From NCBI RefSeq assembly GCF_003984625.1, contig NZ_RWKH01000019.1, positions 1 to 64,000 of the forward strand: DNA of 64,000 nucleotides. The letters are read 5' to 3'. Source of the stretch: Variovorax sp. DXTD-1. GTDB taxonomy: Bacteria > Pseudomonadota > Gammaproteobacteria > Burkholderiales > Burkholderiaceae_C. The translations under genes were made by a program, and so were the position numbers. The notes below the pieces were generated by a model that was not told the DNA's origin, ran no database searches, and saw only the letters and a program-made list of their open reading frames with translations. This document shows, one piece after another, positions 55,111-62,008 of the stretch (positions within the stretch are counted from its first letter, which is position 1; every line of letters begins with the position of its first letter).

Positions 55111-55989
55111 TCAAACAGCCTGCTTATGCCGCTCGATACACACATCAAGCGTCTCGTCACCGCTCCGCTGCCACCAGTCGAGGTTCGAAAAGATCTCGAC
55201 TTCGCTGAACCCCGCAAAGCCCGCCTCTTCGACCCAGCCCCGGATTTTCTTGAGTTCCACGACGCCGTCGCCCATCATCCCGCGGTCAGACAGCAAGTCG
55301 CGTGTCGGCGTGAGCCAGTCGCAGACGTGGTACGCCAGCAGACGCTCGCGGCCGGCGCGGGCGATCTGCTGCTGCAGCTTCGGATCCCACCAAACGTGAT
55401 AGATGTCCAGCGCCACGCCCAGCATGCCGCTCTTGCCCGCGTCGAGTTCGTCGCAAATATCGAGCGCATGTTCGAGCGTGTTGATGCACGCGCGGTCGGC
55501 CGCCTGCATCGGGTGCAGGGGCTCTATGGCGAGCGGCATGCCGACTTCGCGGGCGTACTCCAGCGAGGCGGCGATGCCGTCGCGCACTTCGCCGCGCGCA
55601 CGGCCGATGTCCTTGTAGGCCGCTTTGTCGTCGAGCGCGCCGGGCAGCGCGCCGACCACCAGAACCAGGCAGGGCGCATTCAGCGTCTTGGCCTCGTCGA
55701 TGGCGCGGCGGTTGTCCTCGAGCGCGGCCTTCAGGCCCGCCGCATCGGGCGCGGGGAAGAAGCCGCCGCGGCAGTAGCCCGAGAGGCCAATGCCGTGAGC
55801 CTTCAACTGCTTCGCGATCTTGTCGAGCCCGACGGCAGCCACCTGGTCGCGCCAGGGGCTGATCGCGTGAATGCCGCGTTCGGCGCACTGGTCGATGATG
55901 CGGTCCAGCGGCACCTCGGTGCCCGACTGCTTGCGAATGGTCGCCGTGTTGATCGATAGCCAGTCGTGGTTCTGCGAGAAATCGCGCAT
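55111..55989 (-). CDS. Sugar phosphate isomerase/epimerase-like TIM barrel
   Basis: The 292-residue protein of the AP-endonuclease-2/xylose-isomerase-like TIM-barrel family has an N-terminal LSINTATIRKQ strand and HAISPWRDQVAAVGLDKIA. Metal-site features are PLAIEPLHPM (Glu), LDIYHVWWDP (Asp, His) and SEVEIFSN (Glu). The reaction is likely an isomerisation, epimerisation or dehydration of a sugar or polyol. It is the last gene of a four-gene operon, 8 bases after DUF993. The specific substrate is unknown. Confidence 0.85.
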   Translation of the reverse strand: MRDFSQNHDWLSINTATIRKQSGTEVPLDRIIDQCAERGIHAISPWRDQVAAVGLDKIAKQLKAHGIGLSGYCRGGFFPAPDAAGLKAALEDNRRAIDEAKTLNAPCLVLVVGALPGALDDKAAYKDIGRARGEVRDGIAASLEYAREVGMPLAIEPLHPMQAADRACINTLEHALDICDELDAGKSGMLGVALDIYHVWWDPKLQQQIARAGRERLLAYHVCDWLTPTRDLLSDRGMMGDGVVELKKIRGWVEEAGFAGFSEVEIFSNLDWWQRSGDETLDVCIERHKQAV

Positions 55990-55997
55990 GAACTTGC

Positions 55998-57185
55998 TCA
56001 GCCTTCCACGCCGTGCAAGGCCAGCAGCGTCTTCATGCGCCGCACGGCCAGCTCCGGCTGCTCCAGCAGGTTGGCCGCATCGGCCAGCCGGAACAGCTCG
56101 GCAAAGTGCGGCAGCGAGCGCGTGCTCTGCTGGCCGCCGACCATGGTGAAGTGCTTCTGGTGGCCGTTGAGCCAGGCCATGAACACCACGCCGGTCTTGT
56201 AGAAGCGCGTGGGCGCCGCAAAGATGTGGCGCGACAGCGGCACCGTGGGGCCGAGAATCGCGTGGAACTTCTCGGTGTTGCCTTGGGCCAGTGCGCCCAG
56301 CGCCGCACTCGCGGCCGGTGCAATGGCGTCGAAGATGCCCAGCAGTGCGTCGCTCTTGCCGTGCGTCGGCTCGCTGCCGAAGCCGTCGCCGGCAATCAGC
56401 TCGGCGTAGTTGAAGTCGTCGCCGGTGTACATGCGAACACCTGCCGGCAGGCGGCGGCGCATCGCAATTTCCTTGTCCTTGTCGAGCAGCGAGATCTTGA
56501 TGCCGTCCACCTTGTGCGGATGCGCGGCAATCACGGCAAGCGCCGTGTCCATTGCGGCGTTCACATCCTTGTTGCCCCAGTAGCCCGCGAGGGCCGGATC
56601 GAACATGTCTCCCAGCCAATGCAGCACCACCGGTTGCTTTGCCTGCGAGAGGATGCGGTCGTACACGCGCTCATAGTCGGCCGGGCTCTTCGCCACGCGG
56701 GCGAGGGCGCGGCTGGCCATGACGATCAGCTTGCCGCCAAGCGCCTCGATGGCGGCCATCTGCTCTTCATAGCCGCGGATCACGTCGTCGACGCTCTTCA
56801 CGTCGTCGATGTTCAGGTGGTCGGTGCCGCAGCCGGAGGCCACCAGCGCGCCGGGCACGTCCTTCGCCGCGTCGAGCGAACGGCGAATCAATTCGAGCGA
56901 AGTCGGCCAGTCCAGGCCCATGCCGCGCTGCGCGGTGTCCATGGCTTCGGCCACGCCCAGGCCCAGCGAGAACAGGTGGCGGCGGTAGGCGATGGTGGTG
57001 TCCCAGTCGACTGCGGCCTGCAGCCACGGGTCCACCGCGGCCAGCGGATCGGCCACCACGTGCGCGGCCGAATAGGCGATGCGGTTGAACTTGACGCCCG
57101 CTTCGGGCTTGACCGGCGCGGTGCCGCGCAAGGCATACGGTGCGAGCGAGCCGCTCGCGGTGGGAAGGGTCAGCGAAAGTGCCAT
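55998..57185 (-). CDS. DUF993 protein, aldolase-like TIM barrel
   Basis: The 395-residue protein of DUF993 is distantly like the DapA/N-acetylneuraminate lyase superfamily. FNRIAYSAAHVVADPLA near the start, HLNIDDVKSVDDVIRGYEEQM, PVVLHWLGDMFDPALAGYWG and HKVDGIKISLLDKDKEIA can be seen. The lysine in GIKISLL is a plausible Schiff-base residue. No function is firmly known for the family. It is flanked by Gfo/Idh (10 bases) and isomerase-like (8 bases) genes, suggesting C-C cleavage in the same pathway. Confidence 0.8.
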   Translation of the reverse strand: MALSLTLPTASGSLAPYALRGTAPVKPEAGVKFNRIAYSAAHVVADPLAAVDPWLQAAVDWDTTIAYRRHLFSLGLGVAEAMDTAQRGMGLDWPTSLELIRRSLDAAKDVPGALVASGCGTDHLNIDDVKSVDDVIRGYEEQMAAIEALGGKLIVMASRALARVAKSPADYERVYDRILSQAKQPVVLHWLGDMFDPALAGYWGNKDVNAAMDTALAVIAAHPHKVDGIKISLLDKDKEIAMRRRLPAGVRMYTGDDFNYAELIAGDGFGSEPTHGKSDALLGIFDAIAPAASAALGALAQGNTEKFHAILGPTVPLSRHIFAAPTRFYKTGVVFMAWLNGHQKHFTMVGGQQSTRSLPHFAELFRLADAANLLEQPELAVRRMKTLLALHGVEG

Positions 57186-57195
57186 GCTGCCTGCC

Positions 57196-58359
57196 TCAGA
57201 CCTTCAGCGCGGGCACGTCGATCCAGCGGCGTTCCTTCCACGACTCGAGCGCGGCTTCGACCAGCTGCACGCCCTTGGCGCCTTCGGGCAGTGTCCACTT
57301 GTAGGGCTCGTTCTCGACCACGTGGCGAATGAAGTGCTCCCACTGGATCTTGAAGCCGTTGTCGTACACCTGCGAATCCGGAATCTCCTGCCACTGGTCG
57401 AAGAAATTCATCATCTGTTTTTCGTCCGGGTTCCACACGGGGCGCGGCGTGGCGACGCGGGACTGGGCGCGGCAGCTCGAGAGGCCCGCGACGGCCGAGC
57501 CGTCGGTGCCGTCGACGTGGAAGGTCACGAGGTCGTCGCGGCGAACGCGTGTGACCCAGCTCATGTTGATCTGCGCGATGACCGGCTCGCCGTTGTGGCC
57601 GGTGAGTTCGCAGGTGGCGTAGGCGGCGTCGTCGGCGGTGGCCTCATAGGGCTTGCCGGCTTCGTCCCAGCGCTTGGGAATGTGGGTCGCGCCCAGGCAA
57701 GACACCGACTTGACCTCGCCGAACAGGTTGTCCAGCACATAGCGCCAGTGGCACATCATGTCCAGGATCATGCCGCCGCCGTCTTCCTTGCGGTAGTTCC
57801 AGCTCGGGCGCTGAATGGGCTGCAGGTCGCCCTCGAACACCCAGTAGCCGAACTCCAGGCGCACGCTGAGCATGCGGCCGAAGAAGCCCGCGCGGCGCAG
57901 CATGTCGAGCTTGCGCAGCCCCGGCAGAAAGAGCTTGTCCTGCACGGCGCCGTGCTTGAGGCCGGAGCCTTCGGCCAGGCGGGCGATTTCCACCGCTTCG
58001 TTCAGGTTGGTGGCAATCGGCTTCTCGCAGTACACATGCTTGCCGGCGCGGATGGCCTTGGCCAGCAGCGTGGGGCGCATTTGCGTGGTGCCGGCGTCGA
58101 AGAAGATGGTGTCTTCCTTGTTGGCCAGCGCCGCGTCCAGGTCTGTGCCCCAGCGGGCGATGTTGTGCGTCTTGGCAAGCGCTTCCATCTTCTCGGCGTT
58201 GCGGCCGATGAGGATCGGGTCGGGCATGACCTTGTCGCCGTTCGACAGCGTGACGCCGCCTTGCGCGCGGATCGCGCAGATCGAGCGGATCAGATGCTGG
58301 TTCATGCCCATGCGTCCGGTGACGCCGTGCATGATGATTCCGAGTCGTTGTGTAGCCAT
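57196..58359 (-). CDS. Gfo/Idh/MocA-family NAD(P)-dependent oxidoreductase
   Basis: The 387-residue dehydrogenase has the N-terminal Rossmann strand [33 protein letters not shown] with the catalytic EKP lysine, and [17 protein letters not shown] with Asp-x3-His. These mark oxidoreductases of sugars, inositols and their derivatives. The N-terminal GVTGRMG deviates from the usual GxGxxG. It lies 50 bases after the Bug gene and 10 before DUF993. Its substrate is probably a sugar or cyclitol. Confidence 0.88.
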
Positions 58360-58409: not shown

Positions 58410-59393
58410 TTACTGCGCCGGCGTCAGCCCGGCGGCCTTGACCAGCGCCGCGTTGGTCTTGATTTCGTCCTTGATGTAGGCGTCGAACTGCTCGGGCTTG
58501 AGCGTCCATGCATCGGCGCCCAGCTTCAGGAAGCGTTCCTTGACCTCGGGCGAAGCAAGCGCCTTCGCCACTTCGTCGTGCAGCCGGTTGACGATGTCGC
58601 GCGGCGTCTTGGCCGGCGCCATCATGCCGATCCAGAAGTTGAACTCGGAGCCGGGCACACCGGCCTCAGCCGTGGTCGGCACGTCGGGCAGGGCTGCCGC
58701 GCGCTTGGGCGAGCCGACGGCCAGCGCCAGCAGCTGGCCGTCCTTGATCTGGCCGATGACCGGCGCGATGGGCGAGAAGTAGTAGTCGACCCGGCCCGAC
58801 AGCACTTCGGTCACGGCCTCTGCCGAGCCCTTGAACGGAATGTTGGTGGCGGCTATCTTCGCGGCCATCTTGAACTTCTCGGCGTTGAGGTGGGTGGCGC
58901 TGCCCTGGCCTGCCGATGCGTAGTTGATGGTGCCCGGCTTGGCCTTGGCCGCGGCGACCAGCTCCTGCAGCGTCTTGATGTTCTTCGACGGCGAGATCAC
59001 CAGCGCATTGGGCAGCGACGAGATGGGTGTGACGGCGGCAAAGTCGTTCACCGTGTCGAACGGGAGCTTTGCGAAGGTGGACGGGCTCACCGTGTGCGAC
59101 GACGAGTGAATCATGATCGTGTAGCCGTCCGGCGCGGCCGTGGCCACCGCCTGCTGGCCGATGGTGCCGCTGGCGCCGCCGCGGTTGTCCACCACCAGCG
59201 TCTGGCCCATGCTCTGGCCCATCTTGTCGGCGATGGCCCGCGCAATGATGTCGGTGGTGCTGCCGGCCGCAAACGGCACGACGACGCGAATGGGCTTGTT
59301 GGGATACCCGTTCTGCGCCGATGCCAGACCCGGCATCAAGGCGGCGAGGCAGGTGAGCGTGGCGAGTGCAGTGGTGCGTGCAAGTTGCTTCAT
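58410..59393 (-). CDS. Bug-family solute-binding protein of the TetR-linked operon
   Basis: The 327-residue periplasmic protein has a signal peptide (MKQLARTTALATLTCLAAL, ending ASAQ). It contains KPIRVVVPFAAGSTTDIIARAIADKM, VDNRGGASGTIGQQAVATAAPDGYTI and LPDVPTTAEAGVPGSEFNFWIGM. No TctA/TctB partner is nearby. It is the first gene of an operon with a perfect palindrome 41 bases upstream, and probably delivers the compound broken down by the next genes. Confidence 0.92.
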   Translation of the reverse strand: MKQLARTTALATLTCLAALMPGLASAQNGYPNKPIRVVVPFAAGSTTDIIARAIADKMGQSMGQTLVVDNRGGASGTIGQQAVATAAPDGYTIMIHSSSHTVSPSTFAKLPFDTVNDFAAVTPISSLPNALVISPSKNIKTLQELVAAAKAKPGTINYASAGQGSATHLNAEKFKMAAKIAATNIPFKGSAEAVTEVLSGRVDYYFSPIAPVIGQIKDGQLLALAVGSPKRAAALPDVPTTAEAGVPGSEFNFWIGMMAPAKTPRDIVNRLHDEVAKALASPEVKERFLKLGADAWTLKPEQFDAYIKDEIKTNAALVKAAGLTPAQ

Positions 59394-59433: not shown

Positions 59434-59455
59434 TAATTCACCAATAAGTGAATTA
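59434..59455. promoter_or_regulatory. Candidate TetR operator upstream of the Bug operon
   Basis: TAATTCAC and GTGAATTA form a perfect 8-bp inverted repeat around CAATAA. The site lies 41-62 bases before the Bug start. Its half-site TAATTCAC is also found in the site at 60203-60224 before tetR, so one repressor likely binds both. Confidence 0.7.
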
Positions 59456-59517
59456 GACAATTCTAGGAAGGCTGGCGCCGCAGCGCAACCGCCGCTGATC
59501 GGTAAATACCCGGAGAT

Positions 59518-59540
59518 GGAAAAAGGGCGCCCGAAGGGCT
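59518..59540 (-). terminator. Weak terminator after tetR
   Basis: On the minus strand GCCC-TTC-GGGC is followed by GCCCTTTTT. The stem is short, and it overlaps the tetR stop. It separates tetR from the Bug operon. Confidence 0.4.
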
Positions 59541-60196
59541 CAATGCAGCACGTAGCCCAGCACGAGGTCGGTCATGTGCGAGAGGCGCTGCGCCATGGCC
59601 TTGGGCGCGCGCAGGTCACGGCCGAAGACGGCCGAGAGCGTGTGGTTGTTCGACAGGTAGAAGTAGCAGAGCGAGGCGATCGAGATGTAGAGCTGCACAG
59701 GGTCGACGCCGGCGCGGAACAGCTTGTCGCGCTTGCCGCGCTCGAGCACCGTGTCGAGCAGCTGCACCAGCGGCGAGTTCATCTCCTGGATGCGCTCGGA
59801 GCGCTTCAGGTGCGCGGCGCAGTGCAGGTTCTCGCTGTTGAGCAGCGTGATGAACTCGGGGTGCTCGAGGTAATAGTGCCAGGTGAACGAGACCAGTTGG
59901 CGGATGGCCTCGACTGGATCGATCTCGTCCAGGTGCAACTGCTGCTCGGCCTCGCGGATGTCGGCATAGGTGCGCTCGAGCACCGCCAGGAACAGGTCGT
60001 CCTTGCTGCCGAAGTAGTAGTAGATGAGGCGCTTGTTCAGCCCCGCGCGCGCGGCAATGCTGTCCATGCGCGCGCCGGCCAGGCCCCGTTGCGCGAACTC
60101 GTCGCGTGCCGACGCAAGAATGGCCAGCTGCGAGCGATCGGCATCGCGGGAGCGCGGCTCGATGGCTTCGGGTGGGGAATCTTTCGCGGCTTTCAT
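59540..60196 (-). CDS. TetR-family transcriptional regulator
   Basis: The 218-residue repressor has the N-terminal HTH with RDEFAQRGLAGARMDSIAARAGLNKRLIYYYFGSKDDLFLAVLE (recognition helix in LNKRLIYYYF). The C-terminal domain contains FTWHYYLEHPEFITLLNSEN and IASLCYFYLSNNHTLSAVFG, as in many TetR ligand domains. An operator-like palindrome lies 7-28 bases before its ATG. It sits between the Bug operon (same strand) and the divergent ThDP enzyme, so it probably controls both. Confidence 0.94.
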   Translation of the reverse strand: MKAAKDSPPEAIEPRSRDADRSQLAILASARDEFAQRGLAGARMDSIAARAGLNKRLIYYYFGSKDDLFLAVLERTYADIREAEQQLHLDEIDPVEAIRQLVSFTWHYYLEHPEFITLLNSENLHCAAHLKRSERIQEMNSPLVQLLDTVLERGKRDKLFRAGVDPVQLYISIASLCYFYLSNNHTLSAVFGRDLRAPKAMAQRLSHMTDLVLGYVLH

Positions 60197-60202
60197 CGCA
60201 CG

Positions 60203-60224
60203 AATTTAACCATTTGGTGAATTA
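60203..60224. promoter_or_regulatory. Candidate TetR operator between tetR and the ThDP enzyme gene
   Basis: AATTTAAC and GTGAATTA flank CATTTG. The right half is identical to that of the site at 59434-59455 and the left half differs. It lies next to the tetR ATG and 66 bases before the divergent ThDP gene. Confidence 0.65.
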
Positions 60225-60289
60225 ACGCAAGGCGTTGGGAGCGGGCGCACATAATTCCGGAGACATTTGCAGCTGAGGTTCGACTTCTC

Positions 60290-62008
60290 ATGAGTACATC
60301 ACAACCCGCCGGCCACCTGATCGTCGAATGCCTGGTCGAGCAAGGCATGGAGATCGCGTTCGGCGTTCCAGGCGAAAGCTTTTTGGCGGTGCTCGACGGC
60401 TTTCACGCCTACCGCGAACGCGCGCGGTTCATCGTCAACCGGCAGGAGGGCGGCGCCGCCTTCATGGCGGAGGCGCACGGCAAGCTCACGGGGCGGCCGG
60501 GCGTGTGCTTCGTCACCCGCGGGCCGGGTGCCACCAACGCATCGATCGGCGTGCACAACGCTTTCCAGGATTCCACGCCGATGGTGCTGTTCGTCGGCGA
60601 CGTGGGCAGCGACTTTCGTGACCGGGAAGCCTTCCAGGAAGTGGACTACGGCAGCTTCTTCGGGCCGAGCACCAAGGGCTTTGCCAAGCGCGTCGAGCGC
60701 ATCGACGACGCGAGCCGCATTCCCGAATACGTGGCCCGCGCGTTTTCTACAGCGATGAACGGACGCCCCGGACCGGTGGTGCTGGTGCTGCCTGAAGACA
60801 TGCTGCGCACGCAGACCGCGTCCCGCCCGCTGCCGCGCGTGGACGCCGTTCAGCCTTGGAGCGACCCCGGCTCACTGCGCACCTTGCGCGAGCTGCTGCT
60901 TCAGTCGCAGCGGCCGCTGGTGATTGCGGGCGGCGGCGGCTGGACGACGCAGGCCGCGCAGGCGCTGCAGCGCTTTGCCGAGAACTGGCGGCTGCCCGTC
61001 GCCAATGCCTTCCGCTTTCAGGACACCTTCGACAACCACCATCCGCTCTACGCTGGCGACATCGGCATTGCCATCAATCCCAGGCTCGCGCAGCGCGTGA
61101 AAGACAGCGACCTGATCATCGCCATCGGCCCGCGGCTCGGCGAGATGACAACCGGCGGCTACACGCTGCTCGAAGCGCCGAAGGCCAGGCAGAAGCTGGT
61201 GCACATCCACGCGAGCGCGGAAGAACTCAACCGCGTCTATCAGGCCGACCTGGCCATCAACGCCGGCATGAGCGCCGCGGCGCGCAGCCTCGAGGTGCTG
61301 AGTGCGCCCAATACCTTGCCGTGGGAAGAGTGGGCGGCGCAGGCGCATGCGGACTACGAAGCGAACCTGAAGCCGCAGGCGCTCGCCGGCATGCCGGCTG
61401 AAACGCCGCGCGGCCCGGTCGACATGGCGGAGGTGGTTGCGCTGTTGCAGAAGCACCTGCCGCCGGATGCCGCCATTACCAACGGGGCCGGCAACTTTGC
61501 GAGCTGGGTGCATCGCTATTTCCGCTATCACGGGCTTGCCAAGGGCAGCAAGACGCAGCTGGCGCCCACCAGCGGCGCCATGGGTTATGGCGTGCCGGCG
61601 GGCATTGCGGCCAACCTTGCGACCGGCCGGGTGGCCTTCACGATTGCGGGCGATGGCGATTTTCTGATGACGGGGCAAGAGCTCGCGACGGCCTCGCAGC
61701 ACGGCGGCAAGAGCATCATCGTGCTGCTGAACAACGGCATGTTCGGCACCATCCGCATGCACCAGGAGCGCGAATATCCGGAGCGCACGAGCGGCACTGC
61801 GCTCCGCAACCCCGATTTCTGCGGCCTGGCGCGGGCCTATGGCTATGCCGCCGAACGCGTGACGGAAACCGCGCAGTTCGAAGCCGCGCTGCTGCGCGCA
61901 CTGGCGGCCGATACGGGCACGCTGATCGAGATTCCGCTCGACCCGGAGGTGATCACGACACGCGGCACGCTGGCGTCGATCACGCGTGCGGCGCAGGCGC
62001 GGGGCTGA
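60290..62008 (+). CDS. Thiamine-diphosphate-dependent enzyme, acetolactate synthase-like
   Basis: The 572-residue ThDP enzyme has the three-domain architecture: PYR domain with the catalytic Glu in NRQEGGAAFMAEAHGKLTG, a central Rossmann-like domain with LVIAGGGGWTTQAAQAL, and the PP domain with IAGDGDFLMTGQELATA and LLNNGMFGTIRMHQ. It may be an acetolactate synthase-like carboligase or a decarboxylase (glyoxylate, oxalyl, or sulfonyl type). A GVPGESFLAVLDGF start is typical. It is divergent from tetR. Confidence 0.88.
   Translation: MSTSQPAGHLIVECLVEQGMEIAFGVPGESFLAVLDGFHAYRERARFIVNRQEGGAAFMAEAHGKLTGRPGVCFVTRGPGATNASIGVHNAFQDSTPMVLFVGDVGSDFRDREAFQEVDYGSFFGPSTKGFAKRVERIDDASRIPEYVARAFSTAMNGRPGPVVLVLPEDMLRTQTASRPLPRVDAVQPWSDPGSLRTLRELLLQSQRPLVIAGGGGWTTQAAQALQRFAENWRLPVANAFRFQDTFDNHHPLYAGDIGIAINPRLAQRVKDSDLIIAIGPRLGEMTTGGYTLLEAPKARQKLVHIHASAEELNRVYQADLAINAGMSAAARSLEVLSAPNTLPWEEWAAQAHADYEANLKPQALAGMPAETPRGPVDMAEVVALLQKHLPPDAAITNGAGNFASWVHRYFRYHGLAKGSKTQLAPTSGAMGYGVPAGIAANLATGRVAFTIAGDGDFLMTGQELATASQHGGKSIIVLLNNGMFGTIRMHQEREYPERTSGTALRNPDFCGLARAYGYAAERVTETAQFEAALLRALAADTGTLIEIPLDPEVITTRGTLASITRAAQARG

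Follow-up and report, generated by a model that had tools for sequence, protein, structure and literature searches.

Putative operators of a TetR-family repressor on both sides of its own gene at a DUF993 locus of Variovorax

Genes and palindromes of the locus

The window, that is, the whole 64-kb stretch of Variovorax sp. DXTD-1 DNA analyzed here, encodes a TetR-family regulator of 218 amino acids (tetR, 59540..60196, minus strand) that joins a TetR_N helix-turn-helix (Pfam, 1.2e-16; 60.6 bits, above the cutoff of 24) to TetR_C_29, a TetR-type ligand-binding C-terminal domain (1e-48; 164.8 bits, above the cutoff of 26.2). The same strand carries an operon whose first gene here is bug, for a TctC/Bug-type solute-binding protein (58410..59393; PF03401, 8.8e-75), with the gene for a Gfo/Idh/MocA-family oxidoreductase directly after it (gfo, 57196..58359; Pfam, PDB relative 3oqb), followed by those for a DUF993 protein (55998..57185; PF06187, 6.8e-188) and a sugar isomerase/epimerase-like TIM barrel (55111..55989, start codon placed by eye; PF01261, 4.4e-35; PDB relatives 3qc0 and 3ju2). 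The one solved relative of the DUF993 protein (PDB 4dnh) is labeled "Uncharacterized protein," and we found no paper on DUF993 by name in the literature searched. A ThDP-dependent enzyme, whose gene is a possible third target, is encoded divergently (60290..62008, plus strand; NCBIfam PRK08199, 6e-234).

Two 22-bp sites lie on either side of tetR, exactly as an earlier note on this DNA had described them, with N6 spacers and one identical half-site. Operator O1, upstream of bug (59434..59455, minus strand), reads TAATTCAC-CAATAA-GTGAATTA and is indeed a perfect 8-N6-8 inverted repeat in front of the bug operon. Operator O2, upstream of tetR (60203..60224, minus strand), reads AATTTAAC-CATTTG-GTGAATTA and is imperfect; placed by the earlier note at the tetR start, it is in fact adjacent to it, occupying the 7 to 28 nucleotides upstream of the ATG (60196) and overlapping none of the gene. 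By itself, a perfect 8-N6-8 repeat proves little, because the window contains 15 of them, some of which resemble terminator stems. Terminator-like perfect repeats of the form AAA-stem-TTT occur at positions 803, 6939, 15396, 24195, and 62047. What sets O1 and O2 apart is their shared sequence, their low GC content (23%, in surroundings of about 60%), and their conservation. Allowing up to three mismatches, the palindrome matches the window at O1 and O2 alone, compared to a mean of 0.02 matches in 100 dinucleotide shuffles, none of which had two, and the three occurrences of the octamer GTGAATTA/TAATTCAC all fall within the two sites. Since O2 pairs at five of the eight outer positions and gains two inner pairs, the common element is better given as a 16-bp core, TTMACC-N4-GGTKAA, from which O1 departs at one inner base.

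Conservation of the sites and the predicted promoters

To place these sites in a comparative frame, we kept the best 80 of 372 loci from a protein search with the window TetR; they belong mostly to Variovorax and also to Polaromonas, Pseudacidovorax, Xenophilus, Rhizobacter, and others. With at most five mismatches allowed in 16 fixed positions, 78 of these 80 loci have a site around the tetR start, in the interval from 260 bp before it to 60 bp after it, and 78 have one downstream of tetR and ahead of the next operon, at a distance of no more than 600 bp. The tetR starts were extrapolated from the alignment, and a few sites (such as those of L072 and L074) seem to overlap the assumed start. 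Among the exceptions, L077 has a divergent palindrome upstream of tetR that escaped the rule and scores 20.2 with a weight matrix, L078 has no site in the 600 bp after tetR, and L080, whose TetR is 64% identical, has none at either expected place and one of 23.8 elsewhere. The matrix was built from the sites of these 80 loci, so that the high scores of the window sites (37.7 and 36.1) are to be expected and the informative quantity is the gap to the next-best window position, at 4.0. The resulting consensus is approximately TAATTMACC-N4-GGTKAATTA. Two loci carry extra strong sites besides the two around tetR: L070 at 13182 and 13355, shortly before bug, and L062 at 12010 and 12426, shortly before gfo.

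The first gene past the operator varies among relatives: in L060 it encodes an ABC permease, as judged by eye also in L039, and in L064 a PhyH dioxygenase; inserted operon genes were examined in L004, L029, L039, L060, and L064. Because the site persists in front despite the changed first gene, the comparison indicates that the putative operator belongs with the operon and not with bug as such. ABC-transporter genes together with an enolase-superfamily gene lie within the operon in L004 (8832-12930), L039 (7785-11872), and L060 (7795-11917), the transporter of L060 including an NMT1-type binding protein.

A palindromic site over the regulator's own or a neighboring promoter, by which TetR-family regulation is recognized, is found here over promoters that are predicted as consensus matches. 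For tetR, the predicted −35 element TTGCGT (60225..60230, minus strand) and −10 element TAAATT (60203..60208, minus strand) are 16 bp apart, and O2 fills this spacer and extends over the −10, which coincides with its deviant half-site; the predicted start point falls approximately at the ATG. Across 79 loci, the best-scoring tetR −10 coincides with the same part of the operator in 51, and another 12 have it over the spacer. A right half resembling GTTAAATT is seen in the 53 loci that have TAAATT or a near form there, partly or largely by definition, as the promoter groups were defined by this hexamer. Where TATAGT or TACAGT stands over the spacer (12 loci), the right half is always GTGAATTA, GTGAATTG, or GTGAATAA, and the left half always ends in TTAAC. 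This pattern fits an operator adjusted to the −10 element but is no more than suggestive, because the two promoter groups are also for the most part distinct lineages. Further, all 53 loci of the TAAATT group have an ATG as their first in-frame start codon, located 6 nucleotides (44 loci), 7 nucleotides (7 loci), or 8 nucleotides (2 loci) downstream of the −10, and for this reason the tetR mRNA may be leaderless.

For bug, the predicted −35 TTGCGC (59483..59488, minus strand) and −10 TAGAAT (59460..59465, minus strand) are separated by 17 bp, which would put the start point inside O1, at about 59453; many relatives have TTGACG-18-TANAAT instead of this TTGCGC-17-TAGAAT, and of 78 loci, 61 have their best bug −10 beginning 9 to 12 nucleotides ahead of the operator. 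A weaker candidate, TTGTCT-17-ATTAAT, likewise overlaps O1. A rival reading is that O1 acts as RNA instead, forming a 5' stem-loop on the bug mRNA that stabilizes it or affects its translation. The segment from before O1 to the bug start does fold with an 8-bp stem, but weakly so (z-score of −2.19, with 4 of 200 shuffles as good); moreover, the copy of the motif at tetR precedes the predicted start point and would lie outside any transcript made from that promoter, and in 11 of the 78 loci the best −10 starts 2 nucleotides before the operator, leaving the full stem outside the RNA. We therefore consider an RNA role very improbable. Equally improbable is that TetR activates the operon instead of repressing it: some TetR-family proteins are activators, but an operator that covers the predicted bug start point and also sits in the predicted tetR promoter should exclude the polymerase. 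Repression by polymerase blocking is the action implied by the overlap of both operators with predicted promoters.

Occurrence of the sites in genomes and with the TetR clade

The earlier note had proposed a genome scan for the motif, with many unrelated copies as the outcome that would speak against its proposal. In the 5.25-Mb genome of the strain, the palindrome with up to three mismatches occurs at four places, two of them at the locus, and the core TTMACYNNNNRGTKAA at three, two at the locus and one inside an AraC-like coding frame (contig C77); neither pattern revealed many unrelated copies. As regulon members, we rejected the C77 site for its place inside that frame, a site on C6 for lying inside an aminotransferase-like frame, and a core-less site on C8 between LysR-like and glyoxalase-like frames (all frames named by eye). 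The latter, TATTTCATCAATCGATGAATTA (L083:1501-1522), is palindrome-like and lies in the gap between the LysR-like gene and the divergent glyoxalase-like gene; it is perhaps the operator of another regulator. The lack of any other convincing copy by these two patterns, which were the whole of the genome scan and which weaker sites could escape, suggests a one-locus regulon in this genome.

Across the genus, a 20-bp form of the motif matches in 56 of 61 Variovorax genomes, compared to none of the 61 for a reversed-pattern control; no genome has more than two matches per strand, and the matches listed are either single or paired on the same contig. As for the five genomes without a match, the best TetR relative in G022 is 49% identical, with none close, G037 has no relative at 1e-20, and G028, G040, and G050 hold relatives of 77, 68, and 68% identity with variant sites scoring 22.6 to 28.8. 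Other genomes can hold more sites, with two extra ones each in L062 and L070 and sites on two contigs in G069.

A second comparison started from DUF993 (PF06187). Of 150 genomes sampled from the bacterial family of the window, 35 encode it, and we took stretches around 34 of its 38 places; the four not used are that of the window, two pieces in G161, and one in G167. A tetR with 58 to 93% identity lies within 25 of these 34 stretches; every one of the 25 contains a site that scores 20 or higher, and 23 contain more than one. Overlap with the 80 training loci affects 11 of all 76 test stretches, and 22 of these 25 are free of it. Among the nine stretches lacking tetR, five have no site reaching 12, one has a weak site, and three have a strong one. 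The weak site (15.1, L122) belongs to a genome whose 61% TetR relative is located a little beyond the end of the stretch and is itself surrounded by weak sites only (12.2). Two of the strong sites have a TetR relative elsewhere: in L146, the operon is at a contig start and a 65% relative with a site is at another contig start, and in L150 (G069:C150), the operator stands on the operon while a 66% relative with its own site is on another contig. The genomes of L147, L149, and L151, which have no site, hold TetR relatives of only 39 to 44%, and L144 and L145, also without a site, are second DUF993 copies. G069 has the operator on two contigs (L150, C150, and L161, C134) but a single TetR relative of more than 60% identity, which may reflect a two-locus regulon or a rearrangement.

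The same dependence on relatedness appears when loci are chosen by TetR. We scored the 42 further TetR loci that came with 68 matches, the other 26 matches all being at most 45% identical. At 60% identity or more, 18 of 20 loci have a site of at least 20 (10 of 12 without training overlap), the exceptions being L159 (67%, 11.8) and L162 (61%, 12.2) with weak sites only; at 57% or less, none of 22 has such a site, and none reaches 10. The genome of the strain itself encodes a second TetR_C_29 protein, a paralog of 39% identity on contig C44. By eye, no comparable site was found in the 1.2 kb around it, no similar inverted repeat occurs among the 25 of 55 pairs listed, and the core pattern has no match on C44. 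Within the clade, conservation was measured as identity to the consensus of the 80 relatives and the window TetR. Residues 50 to 66, which we chose as the recognition segment, average 95%, although the helix-turn-helix region as a whole (residues 26 to 72) is hardly better conserved than the C-terminal part (89% compared to 88%). A class-wide protein search matched 2 of 229 genomes at 1e-40, the strain's own and one with a 41% relative; this only hints that the TetR is restricted to the family of the window, because the sample is spread thinly over families.

That a different regulator binds the motif, with TetR a mere neighbor, is likewise very improbable, since the sites track the TetR clade, do not occur near the 22 TetR genes of lower relatedness, and have, by the two patterns, no other convincing genomic copies that another regulon would use, although L148 is an exception, with a site of 26.0 in a genome whose best TetR match is 48%.

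Proposed regulation and relation to known systems

Taken together, the flanking sites in 78 of 80 loci, the co-occurrence with the TetR clade, the lack of another convincing copy in the genome by two search patterns, and the overlap with predicted promoters make it very likely that O1 and O2 are operators of the adjacent TetR-family repressor, controlling both tetR and the bug operon. The earlier note had called its two sites direct sequence evidence for this repression, too strong a phrase for two sites in one genome; the proposal itself is well supported by the comparison across loci and by how closely site presence follows TetR relatedness. The promoters, binding, repression, induction, and leaderless tetR mRNA are elements that we infer. 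A repressor dimer would bind the 16-bp core, approximately TTMACC-N4-GGTKAA. At O2, it would sit between the tetR −35 and −10, block RNA polymerase, and limit its own synthesis, whereas at O1 it would cover the start point of the operon promoter and keep the operon silent (the bug, Gfo/Idh/MocA, DUF993, and epimerase genes). The repressor would be released when a small molecule, probably the pathway substrate or an intermediate, binds the TetR_C_29 domain as inducer. The asymmetry of O2 is probably due to that half doubling as the tetR −10.

Whether O2-bound repressor also controls the divergent ThDP gene, which the earlier note had raised as a perhaps, would be an addition to this explanation, and we see the arguments as evenly balanced. 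A predicted −10, CATAAT (60250..60255, plus strand), was placed by eye. Distances were measured in 65 of the 80 loci (10 have no ThDP match and 5 were skipped for distance), and in 50 of these the ATAAT lies 25 or 26 nucleotides from the operator end; by our arithmetic, the center of the window's operator is then at about −48. In the other 15 this does not hold, the distance differing in 11 and the ATAAT being absent in 4. Also against such control, no good −35 is seen in the window at the 17-bp distance, where the place overlaps the tetR −35; the ThDP gene is 574 to 604 bp away in three Polaromonas loci and unmatched in the 10 loci mentioned; and the constant spacing may merely mirror relatedness or conservation of the tetR promoter. 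Control of the ThDP gene is thus possible in the lineage of the window and unproven in general.

The operator/TetR pair, which accompanies DUF993 in 25 of the 34 stretches, provides a handle on an uncharacterized operon: if a compound relieved repression at the O1 promoter, it would indicate the pathway substrate and hence a role for DUF993. It is also a comparative case of an operator half-site that seemingly serves as a −10 element. More tentatively, the repressor may mark an undescribed catabolic pathway common to many genera of the family, composed of DUF993, the Gfo/Idh/MocA dehydrogenase, the epimerase, and the ThDP enzyme, to which some relatives add an NMT1-type ABC transporter, an enolase-superfamily gene, or a PhyH dioxygenase. 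On this view, the operator by which the repressor controls its own gene would also have been refitted at least once to a shifted −10; as a whole, we hold this reading to be slightly less probable than its contrary.

No title listed in the literature searched describes this regulon. The closest PDB sequence to the window TetR is 3npi (5e-26, residues 25 to 196), named "TetR family regulatory protein," and the best NCBIfam match is RutR of Escherichia coli (2.9e-20, with PDB matches over residues 14 to 208). RutR is the TetR-family regulator of pyrimidine catabolism in E. coli, and its box, TTGACCANNTGGTCAA, has the same spacing as the window operators. RutR is described as binding a palindromic box of about 16 bp and repressing its own gene and a catabolic operon (PMC10891134). 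The window TetR resembles it in its putative 16-bp box and in having its own gene and a catabolic operon as proposed targets. However, at 73 bits against an equivalog cutoff of 368, it is not RutR; the third base of its half-sites is C or A and not the G of the RutR box; its neighbors are the bug, Gfo/Idh/MocA, DUF993, epimerase-like, and ThDP genes and not a rut operon; and only one locus was found for it in its own genome.

In the classical local repressors TetR, AcrR, and QacR, the repressor gene lies beside its target and the operator lies over promoters. The window repressor gene likewise adjoins its target, with operators over predicted promoters, but the proposed target is an uncharacterized DUF993 operon, and tetR and the operon are co-oriented with separate predicted promoters. 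The comparison supports well a system that is ordinary in kind and, as far as the literature searched goes, new in its particulars: very probably a TetR-family repressor that acts locally, controls its own gene, and uses a RutR-like operator, forming a conserved switch of the textbook type.
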